This document shows, piece by piece, positions 5,595-11,845 of a stretch of 64,000 nt of DNA. Made by a program: the position numbers and the translations under genes. Source of the stretch: Bacillota bacterium. GTDB lineage: Bacteria > Bacillota > Sulfobacillia > JAJYWN01 > JAJZPE01. The DNA lies in assembly GCA_021787335.1 (NCBI GenBank), contig JAJYMC010000065.1:60414-124413 (forward strand), read 5' to 3'. How positions within the stretch are numbered: the first letter of the stretch is position 1; each line of letters starts with the position of its first letter. The notes beneath the pieces are model-generated. The model searched no databases. It was not told the origin of the DNA and saw nothing but the letters and a program-made list of their open reading frames with translations.

Positions 5595-6650
5595 TTGCGT
5601 CCCGCGACCTGGCTATACCTTGGGGCCGCTCTGCTTCTGGGGTTCCTGACCCTCAAGTTCGTCCTGCCCTATCTCTTGCCGTTCGTCCTGGCGGCCTTCA
5701 TCGCCGTGCTCATCGACCCCCTGGTCAGCTGGATGGAGGGGCGGCTCAGGATGCGCCGCGGGTTGGCGGTGGCGGTCATCCTCCTTATCGTCCTCGCGGC
5801 CCTGGCCACCGGGATCATCGCCGGCGTCTCCAGGCTGGCCGTGGAAGCCAAGGAGATGACGGATGACCTCCCGCGGTGGCAGACCACGGCCGAGGGTTGG
5901 TTGGCCCGCCTGGGGGAGGTCTCGATGAATCTGCCGGACCCGGCCCGCCAGGCCATCGAGAAACAGATGACCTCGGTCTCCAGCGGGCTCTCGGGGCTGG
6001 CCGAAAGCCTCGTCAACTCGCTGGCCGGTCTGCCGCGGGCCCTGATGTTCATCTTCGTGACCTGTCTGGCGACCTTCTTCGTCAGCCGTGACAAGCGAGA
6101 GCTCAACCGGTTCCTGGTCGGGCTCCTGCCGCCGGCCTGGCGTGGCCACGCCCGAGCCGTCGAGCGCGAGGTCCTGGCCTCGTTCCTCGGATACATCCGG
6201 GCCCAACTGGTCCTGGTCCTCCTGACGGCGGTGGGCTGCATCATCGGCCTGGGGCTGGTCGGCGCGCCGTACGCGCTGCTGATCGGGATAGGCGCCGGGA
6301 TCCTGGATCTCTTCCCGATGGTCGGCCCGGCGACCCTCTTCCTGCCGTGGGGACTGTACCATGTCTTCCTCGGCGACCACGGCTTTGGCCTTGGCCTGCT
6401 CATCGTCCTGGGGGCGGTGACGGCCATCCGCCAGTTGGTCGAGGCCAGGGTCATCGGAGCCAGGATCGGCCTGCATCCTCTGGCCACCCTGATGGCCATC
6501 TATCTGGGCCTGGCCATCTTCGGCGGACAGGGCCTCCTCATCGGGCCGCTGGCTGCCGTGGTCCTCAAGGCCCTGGCTCAATCGGGGCTCTGGCCCAGCT
6601 ACGGTCCACCGAGCGCGGCCGAGCGGCCCCCATCCCGACCAGTCGCATGA
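5595..6650 (+). CDS. AI-2E family transporter-like membrane protein
   Basis: A 351-residue polytopic protein with about seven or eight membrane segments. Paired N-terminal helices (LPYLLPFVLAAFIAVLIDPLV) come first, then a long soluble amphipathic region (residues about 75-150), then a C-terminal helix bundle with GAPYALLIGIGAGILDLFPMVGP. This is the layout of the AI-2E/PerM/YtvI family (PF01594). YtvI-like members are linked to sporulation in Bacillus; others have been implicated in ion or autoinducer transport. The substrate cannot be inferred here. It begins with TTG four bases after cdsA and is followed closely by dxr. Confidence 0.85.
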   Translation: MRPATWLYLGAALLLGFLTLKFVLPYLLPFVLAAFIAVLIDPLVSWMEGRLRMRRGLAVAVILLIVLAALATGIIAGVSRLAVEAKEMTDDLPRWQTTAEGWLARLGEVSMNLPDPARQAIEKQMTSVSSGLSGLAESLVNSLAGLPRALMFIFVTCLATFFVSRDKRELNRFLVGLLPPAWRGHARAVEREVLASFLGYIRAQLVLVLLTAVGCIIGLGLVGAPYALLIGIGAGILDLFPMVGPATLFLPWGLYHVFLGDHGFGLGLLIVLGAVTAIRQLVEARVIGARIGLHPLATLMAIYLGLAIFGGQGLLIGPLAAVVLKALAQSGLWPSYGPPSAAERPPSRPVA

Positions 6651-6660
6651 GGTGACACCC

Positions 6661-7839
6661 TTGCCCGACCGCAACGAGAACCAACGTCATCTGGCCATCA
6701 TCGGCTCCACGGGTTCCATCGGCCGCCAGGCCCTGGAGGTCGTGGCCGCCGACCCGGAGCGTTTCCGGGTGGTGGCCCTGTCCGCCGACAAGAACGTCGA
6801 TCTGATCGAAGAGCAGTGCCGGCGTTTCCACCCGGAACTGGTGGCTGTCCGCGACCCGGCGGCCGCGGACGAACTGAGGCGGCGTCTGGAGGGCGAGCGG
6901 CTCCCGGTCTACTCCGGCCGGGGGGGGCTCATGGCGGCGGCCACGGCCGGCGAGGCCGACCTGGTGGTCATGGCCGTCGTGGGTTCGGCCGGGCTGCCCT
7001 TGACCCTGTCGGCCATCGCCGCCGGCAAGGACGTGGCCCTGGCCAACAAGGAGACCCTGGTGGCCGGGGGTGAGCTGGTCACCCGGGCGGCCCGCGAGCG
7101 CGGCGTCCGCCTCATCCCCGTGGACAGCGAGCATTCGGCCCTCCTGCAGTGCCTGGCCGGGAGCCGCACGGTCGAGGTCAAGCGCCTCGTCCTGACGGCG
7201 TCGGGCGGGCCTTTCCGCGGGTATACCCGCGAGCGGTTGGCCGGGGTCACCCCCGAGATGGCCCTCAACCACCCGACCTGGGCCATGGGTCCGAAGATCA
7301 GCGTCGACTCGGCCACCCTGATGAACAAGGGGCTGGAGGTCATCGAGGCCCACTGGCTCTTCGGCGTGGGGTACGACCGGATCGACGTCGTCGTCCACCC
7401 GCAGAGCCTGGTCCACTCGTTGGTCGAGTTCGTCGACGGCACATACCTGGCCCAGATGGGACCGCCGGACATGCGCCGGCCGATCCAGTACGCCCTGACC
7501 TATCCTCACCGGCGCCCTGCCGCCTGGCCGGGGCTGGACCTGGCCAAAGCGGCCACGATGACCTTCGAGCCGGTCGACACGAGGACCTTCGCTTCCTTGC
7601 GACTGGCTTATGAGGCTGGTAGAATGGGGGGGACGGCGACCGCCGTCCTGAGCGCCGCCGACGAAGTGGCCGTGGGCCTCTTCCTCGAGCGACGCCTCGG
7701 TTTCCTGGATATCGAGCGAGTGGTCGAGGAAGTCCTGATGCGGCACATCCCGCAGCCGGCGCCGACGCTGGCCGGGATCATGTCCGCCGACGAATGGGCC
7801 CGCGCTGAGGCGAGGAAGGCCGCCGCGGGCAGAAGGTAG
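6661..7839 (+). CDS. dxr: 1-deoxy-D-xylulose-5-phosphate reductoisomerase
   Basis: DXR converts deoxyxylulose phosphate to methylerythritol phosphate with NADPH, the first committed step of the MEP isoprenoid pathway. An N-terminal Rossmann motif GSTGSIGRQALEVV is followed by ALANKETLVAGGE, VDSEHSALLQCL, TASGGPFR and the metal/substrate loop HPTWAMGPKISVDSATLMNKGLE. I choose the TTG at 6661 (392 residues) because GAGGTG lies six bases upstream; a GTG at 6652 would overlap that Shine-Dalgarno. rseP and ispG follow, the usual order. Confidence 0.97.
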   Translation: MPDRNENQRHLAIIGSTGSIGRQALEVVAADPERFRVVALSADKNVDLIEEQCRRFHPELVAVRDPAAADELRRRLEGERLPVYSGRGGLMAAATAGEADLVVMAVVGSAGLPLTLSAIAAGKDVALANKETLVAGGELVTRAARERGVRLIPVDSEHSALLQCLAGSRTVEVKRLVLTASGGPFRGYTRERLAGVTPEMALNHPTWAMGPKISVDSATLMNKGLEVIEAHWLFGVGYDRIDVVVHPQSLVHSLVEFVDGTYLAQMGPPDMRRPIQYALTYPHRRPAAWPGLDLAKAATMTFEPVDTRTFASLRLAYEAGRMGGTATAVLSAADEVAVGLFLERRLGFLDIERVVEEVLMRHIPQPAPTLAGIMSADEWARAEARKAAAGRR

Positions 7840-7848
7840 GGCCGTCAC

Positions 7849-8451
7849 TTGACAACAGTCATCGTCTCCATCCTCGTCTTCGGCCTCCTGATCATGGTCC
7901 ATGAGCTCGGCCATTTCCTGGCCGCCAAGCGGGCCGGCATCCACGTGCCCGAGCTGGCCTTCGGCTTCGGGCCGAAGATCGTCGGCTTCCGGGCCGGGGA
8001 GACCGAGTATAACCTGCGCCTGTTCCCCCTGGGCGGCTTCTGTCGGATGGCCGGGAGCAACCCCGACGACCCCGAGGACATGAACGACCCGCGGGGCTTC
8101 AACCGTCGCACCGTGGGTCAGCGGATGGGGGTCATCGCCGCCGGGCCGGCGATGAACTTCCTCCTGGCCGTGGTCCTCTTCAGCGTCCTCTTCGCGGCCT
8201 CGGGCGTGGCCGAGGCGGTACCCGGAAGCACCGTCGTGGGTGAGGTCATCCCCGGCTTCCCGGCCGCGGCGGCCGGCGTCCAGTCCGGGGACCGCATCGT
8301 CGCCATCGAGGGTGTGGCCATCAATGACTGGGACCAGCTCGTGGCGGTCATCCAGAAGAACATCGGCCGGCCAGTGCAGTTGACCGTGGAGAGGGCCGGG
8401 CGGAACCTGACCCTGCCGATCGGAAGTGACCCCGGTGGAGAACCCCAATGA
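7849..8451 (+). CDS. rseP: RseP site-2 protease, N-terminal part (frameshifted)
   Basis: This part encodes the zinc-binding HELGH (His18 to His22) in the first membrane segment, the FGFGPKIVGF and YNLRLFPLGGFC membrane-reentrant region, and one PDZ domain (residues about 120-190, VIPGFPAAAAGVQSGDRIVAI). It stops after residue 200, where a full RseP would continue to a third and fourth membrane segment. The missing part is encoded in the next frame (8426-8902). Alone it lacks the LDG motif that supplies the third zinc ligand and should be inactive. RseP/RasP cleaves anti-sigma factors and signal peptide remnants inside the membrane. Confidence 0.88.
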   Translation: MTTVIVSILVFGLLIMVHELGHFLAAKRAGIHVPELAFGFGPKIVGFRAGETEYNLRLFPLGGFCRMAGSNPDDPEDMNDPRGFNRRTVGQRMGVIAAGPAMNFLLAVVLFSVLFAASGVAEAVPGSTVVGEVIPGFPAAAAGVQSGDRIVAIEGVAINDWDQLVAVIQKNIGRPVQLTVERAGRNLTLPIGSDPGGEPQ

Positions 8452-8902
8452 CAAGTCGCACGGATTCCTGGGGGTCTCACGGGAGGTCGTCGTCCGCAAG
8501 GAGCCTCTGCCGACGGCCGTCAAGGACGGCTTCGTCCAGACCATCAGCATCACCGTCCTGTGGCTGAAAGGCCTGGTGATGATGGTCCTGCGGCGGGCTT
8601 CGCCCGACCTGACCGGGCCGGTCGGAATCACCCAGATGATCGGCCAGGCGGCTCAGGCCGGCCTGGTCAGCGTGGTCTCGTTCGCCGCCGCCCTGTCGGC
8701 CAACCTGGGGCTATGGAACCTCCTGCCGATCCCGGCCCTCGACGGCTCGCGCCTGGTCTTCCTAGGCTTCGAGAAGCTCCGTGGGCGGCCGGTCGCGCCG
8801 GAGAAGGAGAACTTCATCCACGTCCTGGGCTTCGCCTTTCTGATCCTGCTCATCGTCGTCGTGACCTACCGCGATATCCTGCGGCTGCGGGTCTCATCGT
8901 GA
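8426..8902 (+). CDS. rseP: RseP site-2 protease, C-terminal part (frameshifted)
   Basis: This continues RseP in frame +1 relative to the N-terminal part. It reads VTPVENPN, the usual end of the PDZ domain, then GFLGVSRE, DLTGPVGITQMIGQAAQAG and NLLPIPALDGSRLVFL with the catalytic LDG, and a final membrane segment. The two frames overlap for 26 bases, so a single extra base (or two missing bases) near 8425 explains the split. The GTG at 8426 has no convincing Shine-Dalgarno, which argues against an independently translated subunit. It is a sequencing error, a true mutation or recoding. Confidence 0.85.
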   Translation: MTPVENPNDKSHGFLGVSREVVVRKEPLPTAVKDGFVQTISITVLWLKGLVMMVLRRASPDLTGPVGITQMIGQAAQAGLVSVVSFAAALSANLGLWNLLPIPALDGSRLVFLGFEKLRGRPVAPEKENFIHVLGFAFLILLIVVVTYRDILRLRVSS

Positions 8903-8923: not shown

Positions 8924-9982
8924 ATGACCAGGAGAGCTTCGCGACAGGTGAAGGTCGGGGCGGTGGCCATCGGGGGCGGCGCCCCGATCGCCGTCCAGAC
9001 GATGACCAAGACGGATACTCGGGACGTGACCGCGACCGCGGCCGAGATCAGGCGGCTCGCGGAGGCCGGGACCGACCTCGTGCGCCTGGCCGTCCCCGAC
9101 CACGAGGCCGCGGAAGCCCTGGCGGCGCTGGTCCACGGCTCACCGGTACCGCTGGTCGCCGACATCCACTTCGACTACCGCCTAGCCCTGGAGGCCCTCC
9201 GGGCCGGGGTGGACAAGCTCCGGATCAACCCCGGGAACATCGGCGGGGCCGACCGGGTGAGGGCCGTGGCCACGGCCGCCAAGGAACGCGGCGTCCCCAT
9301 CCGCATCGGGGTAAACGCCGGCTCGCTGGAGGACCGGCTCATCGACAAATACGGCGGGCCGACTCCGCAGGCCATGGTCGAGAGCGCCCTGACCCAGGCA
9401 GCCGTCCTGGAGGGCCTGGGCTTCGGAGACATCGTCATCTCCCTGAAAGCATCGGACGTGCGGCGGACGGTGGAGGCCTATCGGTTGGCCGCCGGGCGCT
9501 GCGACTACCCGTTGCACCTCGGGGTGACCGAGGCCGGCGGGCTCTTGCCGGGGACGGTCAAGTCCTCCGTCGGTCTGGGCCTGCTCCTGGCCGAGGGCAT
9601 CGGCGACACCATTCGGGTGTCCCTGACCGAGGATTCGGCCCTTGAAGTCCGGGCGGGCTTCGAGATATTACGCGCTCTCGGCCTCAGGTCGTCGGGGCCG
9701 GAGATAATCTCCTGCCCGACCTGCGGGCGGTGCCAGGTGGGCCTGCCCGAGGTGGTCCGCGAGGTCGAGGCCGGTCTGCGCGGGCTCCGCGCACCGATCA
9801 AGGTGGCCGTCATGGGTTGCGCGGTCAACGGCCCCGGGGAGGCCCGGGAGGCCGACGTCGGAGTGGCCGCGGGGAAGGGCGGCGGTCTCCTCTTCCGAGG
9901 CGGCCAGGTGGTCGGCCGAGTGCCCGAGGGAGAGCTGGCCAAGGTCCTCATCGAGGAGGTCCGGCGGTTGACCCGTGGTTGA
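8924..9982 (+). CDS. ispG: 4-hydroxy-3-methylbut-2-enyl diphosphate synthase
   Basis: IspG (GcpE) is the [4Fe-4S] enzyme that makes HMBPP in the MEP pathway. The TIM-barrel part carries VQTMTKTDTRDV, the VADIHFDYRLAL motif and RINPGNIGG. The C-terminal cluster-binding part has SCPTCGRC and MGCAVNGPGEA (three Cys ligands plus the conserved Glu). Length (352) is normal for the short bacterial form. GGGAGGGG precedes the ATG. Its last codons lie inside the tandem GGTTGAC repeats that form the proS promoter. Confidence 0.97.
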   Translation: MTRRASRQVKVGAVAIGGGAPIAVQTMTKTDTRDVTATAAEIRRLAEAGTDLVRLAVPDHEAAEALAALVHGSPVPLVADIHFDYRLALEALRAGVDKLRINPGNIGGADRVRAVATAAKERGVPIRIGVNAGSLEDRLIDKYGGPTPQAMVESALTQAAVLEGLGFGDIVISLKASDVRRTVEAYRLAAGRCDYPLHLGVTEAGGLLPGTVKSSVGLGLLLAEGIGDTIRVSLTEDSALEVRAGFEILRALGLRSSGPEIISCPTCGRCQVGLPEVVREVEAGLRGLRAPIKVAVMGCAVNGPGEAREADVGVAAGKGGGLLFRGGQVVGRVPEGELAKVLIEEVRRLTRG

Positions 9983-10037: not shown

Positions 10038-10345
10038 GTACCAACAAAGCCCAGAACGCCATAGGGTTCAGGCGATGACGGGAAGAGTAGGAGCTTGTGG
10101 CCGCGCGACAGGGACCCGGGTCCGAGATTGAGAGGCCCGGGCGCGATGGCCGCTCCGAAACCCAACCCGAAGCCAGGACTAAGCCGGCCAAGAGGCCGGC
10201 CCAAACCTCCGCCCCGCCGGTTACGCGGGCCGTCATTGACGGAAAAGATGAGGCTGGCGGTTCACGCCGGCGAAGAAGGGTGGCACCGCGAGTCTACGGA
10301 CCTTCGCCCCTTTGGTGGGCGAGGGTCTTTGTGGTTTCTGGAGGA
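10038..10345 (+). promoter_or_regulatory. T-box riboswitch leader of proS
   Basis: The stretch between ispG and proS carries the T-box core GGGTGGCACCGCG at 10278-10290. A terminator follows whose 5' arm (CCTTCGCCC) can also pair with the CGAAG before the T-box, the usual antiterminator arrangement. An AGTA-type motif (GAAGAGTAGGAGC) near 10083-10095 would mark the base of Stem I; GGAGC and GCTCC can close that stem. T-box leaders read the charging state of a tRNA through a specifier codon; with proS downstream, tRNA-Pro is expected. I could not assign the specifier triplet by eye. Open reading through this region is an artefact of the GC-rich leader. Confidence 0.88.
10299..10336 (+). terminator. 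T-box terminator hairpin
   Basis: An 11-bp stem (10299-10309 with 10317-10327; one G-U pair) is closed by a CTTTGGT loop and followed by TTTGTGGTTT. It is the terminator half of the T-box switch and overlaps the antiterminator 3' arm. Confidence 0.85.
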
Positions 10346-10378
10346 CGATTCTGGGAACGATGGGAGAGGGTGGTTCAG

Positions 10379-11845
10379 TTGGCTGAAGAGTCCAAGAAGG
10401 GCGCGGCGGGGCAGGATTTCGTCAAGGAGATAACCGCTCGGTCGGTCGACTTCTCGCGGTGGTACATCGATGTCATCCGCAAGGCCGACCTGGTGGACTA
10501 TGCCCCCGTGCGTGGGTGCATGGTCATCAAGCCGGGCGGCTACGCCATCTGGGAGAAGGTCCAGGAGGGTCTGGACCGGCGGTTCAAGGCCACCGGCCAC
10601 CGCAACGCCTACTTCCCGCTGTTCATCCCGGAGAGCTTCGTCCAGCTCGAGAAGGAGCACGTGGAGGGCTTCGCGCCGGAGCTGCCGTGGGTCACCGAGG
10701 CGGGGGGCGAGAAGCTGACCGAACGGTTGGCGGTGCGCCCGACCTCGGAGACGATCATCTGCTCCATGTACGCCAAGTGGATCCAGAGCTACCGCGACCT
10801 GCCGATGCTCCTGAACCAGTGGTGCAACGTGGTTCGCTGGGAGAAGCGAACCCTCCCCTTCCTCCGCACGTCTGAGTTCCTGTGGCAGGAGGGGCACACG
10901 GCCCATCGGACCGCCGAGGAGGCCGAGGAAGAGACGATCCGGATGCTCCGGGTCTACCAGGATTTCGTCGAGAACGACCTGGCCATCCCGGTCATCCCGG
11001 GACTCAAGAGCGACAAGGAGAAGTTCGCCGGGGCCGTCCGGACCTACTCCATCGAGGCCATGATGCAGGACGGTAAGGCCCTTCAGGCAGGGACCTCGCA
11101 CTTCCTCGGGCAGAATTTCGCTGTTCCCTTCAACATCCAGTTCCTTGACGCCGACGGGCAACTAAAATATGTCTGGCAGACCTCGTGGGGGCTGAGCACG
11201 CGGATCATCGGGGCCCTGGTCATGGTCCACGGCGACGACCGCGGCCTGGTCATCCCGCCGAGGGCCGCCGAGATCCAGGTGGTCATCGTCCCCATCGCTC
11301 CGGTCAAGGAGCGCGGGAACGTTCTGGCCGAGGTCGGGAAGGTCGTGGCCGAGCTGCGCGAGGTGGCCCGGGTCCACGTCGACGACGACGAGGAACACTC
11401 CCCCGGCTGGAAGTTCAACGAGTGGGAACTCAAGGGCGTGCCCGTGCGCCTGGAGATCGGACCGCGCGACCTCAAGGCCGGACAGGCGGTGCTGGTCCGG
11501 CGGGACACTGGGCTCAAAGAGGCCGTGCCCCTGACTCAGCTCAAGGGGCGCGTGGTCGAGACCCTGGCCGACATGCAATCATCCCTGCTGGCGAAGGCCA
11601 GGCGGCGGCTGGAGGAACAGACCACCACGGCCGGCTCGTACGACGAGTTCAAGCAGGTCATCGAGGACCGGCGCGGCTTCGTCGTCGCCGGTTGGTGCGG
11701 TGACGCCGCCTGCGAAGCCAAGGTCAAGGAAGAGACCGGGGCGACCATCCGGAACCTGCCCTTGGATCAGCCGGCCGACGCCGGGGCCTGCCTCGTGTGC
11801 GGCGGCAAGGCCAAGCACCAAGCCTATTTCGCGCGGGCCTATTAG
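10379..11845 (+). CDS. proS: Prolyl-tRNA synthetase, archaeal/eukaryal type
   Basis: This class II synthetase charges tRNA-Pro. It is of the shorter type without the bacterial editing insertion and with a C-terminal zinc-like domain. FVKEITARSVDFSRWY and PVRGCMVIKPGGYAIWE start the protein, then LAVRPTSETII, WCNVVRWE, FLRTSEFLWQEGHTAH (motif 2) and HGDDRGLVIPP (motif 3). The C-terminus has Cys pairs in GWCGDAACE and CLVCGG. I place the start at the TTG at 10379 (488 residues, MAEESKKG...) because GAGAGGGTGG precedes it and the upstream frame is T-box leader. Regulation is by the T-box. Confidence 0.95.
   Translation: MAEESKKGAAGQDFVKEITARSVDFSRWYIDVIRKADLVDYAPVRGCMVIKPGGYAIWEKVQEGLDRRFKATGHRNAYFPLFIPESFVQLEKEHVEGFAPELPWVTEAGGEKLTERLAVRPTSETIICSMYAKWIQSYRDLPMLLNQWCNVVRWEKRTLPFLRTSEFLWQEGHTAHRTAEEAEEETIRMLRVYQDFVENDLAIPVIPGLKSDKEKFAGAVRTYSIEAMMQDGKALQAGTSHFLGQNFAVPFNIQFLDADGQLKYVWQTSWGLSTRIIGALVMVHGDDRGLVIPPRAAEIQVVIVPIAPVKERGNVLAEVGKVVAELREVARVHVDDDEEHSPGWKFNEWELKGVPVRLEIGPRDLKAGQAVLVRRDTGLKEAVPLTQLKGRVVETLADMQSSLLAKARRRLEEQTTTAGSYDEFKQVIEDRRGFVVAGWCGDAACEAKVKEETGATIRNLPLDQPADAGACLVCGGKAKHQAYFARAY

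Follow-up and report, generated by a model that had tools for sequence, protein, structure and literature searches.

Should a site-2 protease gene whose two halves lie in different reading frames be regarded as a new kind of protein, split or frameshifted, or as an ordinary gene that has been broken, be it in the cells or in the assembly of their genome? The question is raised by positions 7849-8902 (plus strand) of the window, that is, of the whole stretch of 64,000 nucleotides that was analysed, where the list of open reading frames and the sequence itself reveal two halves of one RseP/RasP, head to tail, in frames 1 and 2. Most likely, the gene was either disrupted by a recent mutation of an ordinary sort or misassembled, and no novel type of protein, split or frameshifted, is involved.

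Two halves of one RseP/RasP in two frames

The split as such is confirmed. The one continuous reading frame of RseP/RasP is absent: frame 1 meets a stop at 8449, and frame 2, preceded by a stop at 8408-8410 and with its first GTG at 8426, is open from 8411 to the TGA at 8900-8902, with both open frames overlapping over 8411-8448. In the comparisons, G000 is the window's own genome, G001 the sole genome of the same genus and G002 one genome of the same family. The features of the locus are as follows.

6652-7839, plus strand: dxr, intact (TIGR00243, 468.8 bits)
7849-8451, plus strand: N-half of rseP, with a TTG start, the HELGH zinc motif, the PDZ domain and a TGA stop at 8449-8451; 200 aa
8416-8425, plus strand: site of the 7-bp insertion, with four equivalent 7-base placements, from the alignment with G001 and G002
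8422-8429, plus strand: weak Shine-Dalgarno-like GGAAGTGA, 5' of the in-frame GTG at 8435-8437; -7.2 kcal/mol
8426-8902, plus strand: C-half of rseP in frame 2, with the NLLPIPALDG motif; 158 aa counted from GTG 8426
8443-8446, plus strand: CCCC run, a conceivable site for a +1 slip, with the frame-1 stop two codons further on; absent from G001 and G002
8924-9982, plus strand: ispG, intact (NF001540, 481.2 bits)

Both halves match RseP, as had been proposed from the sequence at the outset. In terms of Pfam PF02163 (Peptidase_M50), the N-half corresponds to positions 3-106 (7.7e-34) and the C-half to positions 107-221 (1.2e-23), and the two, scored apart against NCBIfam TIGR00054 (RseP; curated cut-off 147.55 bits), reach 155 and 110.4 bits, respectively. 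The HExxH zinc motif is present in the N-half (VHELGHF) and the NxxPxPxxDG motif in the C-half (NLLPIPALDG), while a PDZ_6 match at 129-182 of the N-half (4.4e-11) places the PDZ domain between the two, as in RseP/RasP. Solved RseP-type structures are also matched by both halves (RseP 7w6x and aq_1964 9j82). The locus therefore has in common with the RseP/RasP (YluC) site-2 protease (TIGR00054, PF02163) the HELGH motif, the PDZ domain, the NLLPIPALDG motif and the gene order dxr-rseP-ispG, but differs from it in that the gene occupies two frames, owing to seven extra bases.

The seven extra bases and the relatives

The original prediction described the break as a +1 frameshift. The split and the net shift of +1 between the halves hold, both in the list of open reading frames and in the sequence, but a single-base lesion does not: aligned with G001 and G002, the window carries seven extra bases directly 5' of 8426, i.e., before GTGACCCCGG. 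In each of these two relatives rseP is a single open frame of 351 aa, and the flanks of the insertion are well aligned on both sides (83% identity with G001 and 77% with G002), one blastn alignment dividing the insertion into 1 + 6 bases. With a difference of seven bases, a one-base homopolymer error is ruled out at this site, and seven bases in a non-homopolymer context are atypical of base-calling error. It is possible that an in-frame 6-bp change and a one-base error, instead of one 7-bp insertion, underlie the difference; however, none of the 32 aligned relatives has its VTP strand directly preceded by two additional residues. The site lies near a loop of variable length.

A search within 1 kb found no tandem repeat at the break, in the sense of an adjacent direct copy of any of the placements, and the longest match to any placement over that distance is either the 8-base palindrome CCGATCGG itself or a 6-mer. 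In a control for templated insertion, 11% of random sites had a local match of at least 10, a figure to be taken as approximate, since the start offset of the control missed the CCTGCCGATC match itself. This 10-mer (8412-8421) occurs twice in 762 kb of the genome, both times in rseP, once at the insertion and once, as read by eye, ~310 bases downstream of that copy.

How far does the split extend among relatives? In a set of 61 genomes that includes G000 itself, 59 have a match to the C-half, and in 56 of these the match lies in a single frame no shorter than 338 aa. Among the remaining three, G011 and G043 are cut by contig ends (the G011 match begins at contig base 7, and the end in G043 was judged from coordinates, with no motif found in the piece), and the window alone is split. 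Where the two motifs were looked for, both lie in one frame at 32 of 35 loci (L037 apparently repeating L008); the other three, L024, L040 and L042, fall outside the motif patterns used, although the match in L024 is nonetheless within a 351-aa frame. In a wider survey, the C-half is matched in 149 of 154 genomes of the class and in 395 of 398 of the phylum sample, and among the matches listed, no other split rseP was found in the short best-match frames followed up (G152 was left out of this follow-up), each of these frames being accounted for by truncation at a contig end, by a protein that lacks the PDZ domain or by an N run. Specifically, the short frames of G078, G092 and G097 reach contig ends; in G494 (L170), an N run inside the gene alters the apparent frame; and the candidate in G141 (L045) was discarded because both motifs sit in one frame that is too short to accommodate a PDZ domain. 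In G058 and G046, the flagged stops leave the 344-aa ORFs uninterrupted. The G141 protein, RseP-like and of the M50 type, is short, the frame that contains its two motifs having 239 aa, and is an observation in its own right.

As far as seen in these sequences, the split appears confined to G000. Because the window alone is split, neither a conserved two-part protease nor conserved programmed frameshifting is supported. Comparison of the same position in relatives, which had been suggested as a check, leaves a null mutation and an assembly error live among the options originally listed, but provides no conserved support for the other two.

Broken allele, artefact or working enzyme

On balance, we lean slightly towards a single-copy rseP/rasP that has been broken by a recent 7-bp loss-of-function insertion. 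The seven bases would have hit the linker after the PDZ domain of this site-2 intramembrane metalloprotease gene, recently in the window lineage, so that translation from the TTG at 7849 would produce the HELGH half, the PDZ domain and about ten altered residues before stopping at 8449, and the LDG half would be made poorly or not at all. Since it is to this latter half that the third zinc ligand of E. coli RseP, Asp402, belongs (according to excerpts of PMC10024687), the protease would be expected to be inactive. Both the presence of the insertion in the cells and the loss of activity are what we infer. No second RseP was found in the genome, whose other M50 matches are SpoIVFB-like and Rip-like proteins, names that reflect our own reading of the sequences and their neighbours.

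Could a cell afford such a loss? Excerpts of PMC10024687 describe RseP as essential in E. coli, but parts of two other reports point the other way: B. subtilis grows when rasP is deleted (PMC5381017, in part), and enterocin-resistant isolates carry out-of-frame rseP alleles through gain or loss of an 8-bp repeat in E. faecalis and rseP alleles through transposons in E. faecium (PMC5413573, in part). Given the viable deletion and the E. faecalis alleles, as these parts describe them, the lesion would be tolerable. The likeness to E. faecalis resistant to enterocin EJ97/K1 lies in a short, out-of-frame length change that breaks rseP in a Firmicute; there, however, it is a tandem repeat under bacteriocin selection that is gained or lost, whereas the window has seven bases with no tandem copy found (PMC5413573, same part). 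The B. subtilis deletion resembles the window in that loss of the protease would be compatible with growth, but it was engineered and is accompanied by secretion defects (PMC5381017, same part). If real, the allele would mean that a probable spore-former has naturally lost the sole RseP found in its genome, which would agree with a dispensable RseP in the phylum and perhaps with its loss under bacteriocin-like selection.

Selection provides a constraint on the age of the break. Against G001, dN/dS is ~0.26 for the N-half and ~0.14 for the C-half, with ~0.12 for dxr and ispG. Using G002 as outgroup, the synonymous/nonsynonymous codon changes amount to 9/6 (N-half) and 15/2 (C-half) in the window lineage, and to 16/9 and 13/4 in the G001 lineage. 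Both halves still show purifying selection, as would be expected after a very recent break, with no decay visible and, because neither has decayed, the break must be of very recent origin, absent from the cell, or harmless.

This lack of decay is equally expected of a local sequencing or assembly artefact, which is less probable than a real insertion but deserves serious weight: rseP would be intact in the cells, and a bad read end, the remnant of an adapter or the closing of a gap would be the source of the seven bases. Written as ATCGGAA or as GATCGGA, the insertion lies within AGATCGGAAGAGC, a string that papers contain and that we take to be the start of a common Illumina adapter, and GATCGGAAG, matching that presumed start, spans 8418-8426. 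A 7-mer of this kind, in any of four placements, is found at only 440 of 108,866 sampled sites (0.4%), and GATCGGAAG itself only 9 times in 3.55 Mb. Besides, G000 is a draft of 65 contigs, of which the pieces that were analysed contain short stretches of N, and one other genome of the phylum sample has its rseP broken by an N run. Nonetheless, the adapter match is a post hoc one, tied to the placement chosen (two of the four match), a simple adapter tail does not account for flanks that continue exactly, and seven of the eight other GATCGGAAG sites lie inside coding-like open frames that run through them, the eighth (L059) being in no clearly coding frame as judged by GC3.

The assembly was also screened for frameshifts in general. 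A crude screen found two-frame ORFs in 13 of 95 cases in G000 versus 5 of 99 in G001, although most of these 13 are suggested to be wrong-strand or over-extended ORFs, and an indel screen with blastn gave too much noise to be of use. A stricter screen of 104 gene pairs each way, covering ~762 kb of readable G000 and ~541 kb of G001, left four two-frame cases in G000 (rseP included) and three in G001. When the alignments were read, the clean indels were reduced to rseP alone in G000 and two one-base changes in G001; the G000 case at C50 157.8k, whose one-base gap falls where the alignment is poor, was judged not clean. The idea of an assembly full of frameshifts was therefore discarded and, with no other clean frameshift among the 104 gene pairs, a generally error-ridden assembly is unlikely, which also weighs against an artefact at rseP. 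Should the seven bases prove to be one, they would serve as a warning about frameshifts seen in single genomes; real or artefactual, they would leave the understanding of RseP unchanged.

A working two-part protease, with the C-half arising from coupled internal initiation at GTG 8435 and the halves assembling in the membrane, is improbable, and its more specific version, in which the insertion itself created a two-cistron site-2 protease whose HELGH/PDZ and LDG halves are overlapping, coupled genes, active once assembled, even more so. It would agree with the complementary parts of the M50 domain in the two halves, with the strong purifying selection on the C-half, and with the Shine-Dalgarno-like GGAAGTGA 8 bases ahead of GTG 8435 (measured from GGAAG), a start that would overlap the end of the N-half by 17 bases. 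That no ribosome binding site precedes the second half, as originally stated, is true of GTG 8426 (anti-SD pairing of -3.5 kcal/mol, equalled or bettered by 57% of 2,358 internal GTGs), but not of GTG 8435, the only other early in-frame start, whose pairing is moderate and unremarkable: 13.4% of the same ordinary internal GTGs do as well or better, which is a point against the two-part enzyme. Moreover, the split is not seen in any other relative with a readable gene, and the observed selection is indistinguishable from that preceding a young break. A limited literature search found no report of such a two-part protease; if true, a two-cistron rseP would be a natural test of an intramembrane protease working as two pieces.

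Least likely of all is programmed +1 frameshifting that would give a full-length protein, for instance at CCC.C (8443-8446) ahead of the TGA at 8449: the frames do overlap there, the CCCC run precedes the stop and a slip at it would change the linker only locally, but the stop is not in the codon adjoining the run, the shift is due to seven bases seen in G000 alone, and neither shift site nor frame break is kept in relatives, which have one open frame there, the two nearest needing no shift and having no CCCC run. Two-part or frameshifted, a functional enzyme is possible but unsupported.

Genes around rseP

Besides dxr and ispG, which flank rseP, its neighbours include uppS, a cdsA-like gene, ytvI and proS. 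The isoprenoid operon had been described as otherwise intact, and this is indeed so for uppS, dxr and ispG, all of them full-length, with ytvI and the cdsA-like gene between uppS and dxr. The former of these, at 5595-6650, matches the sporulation membrane protein YtvI (TIGR02872, 266 bits) and lies inside the isoprenoid cluster, between the cdsA-like gene and dxr. Finally, the proS ORF (10097-11845) carries ~110 residues ahead of its match to the ProRS family, which begins at residue 114, and the true start of proS is probably further in than that of the ORF.
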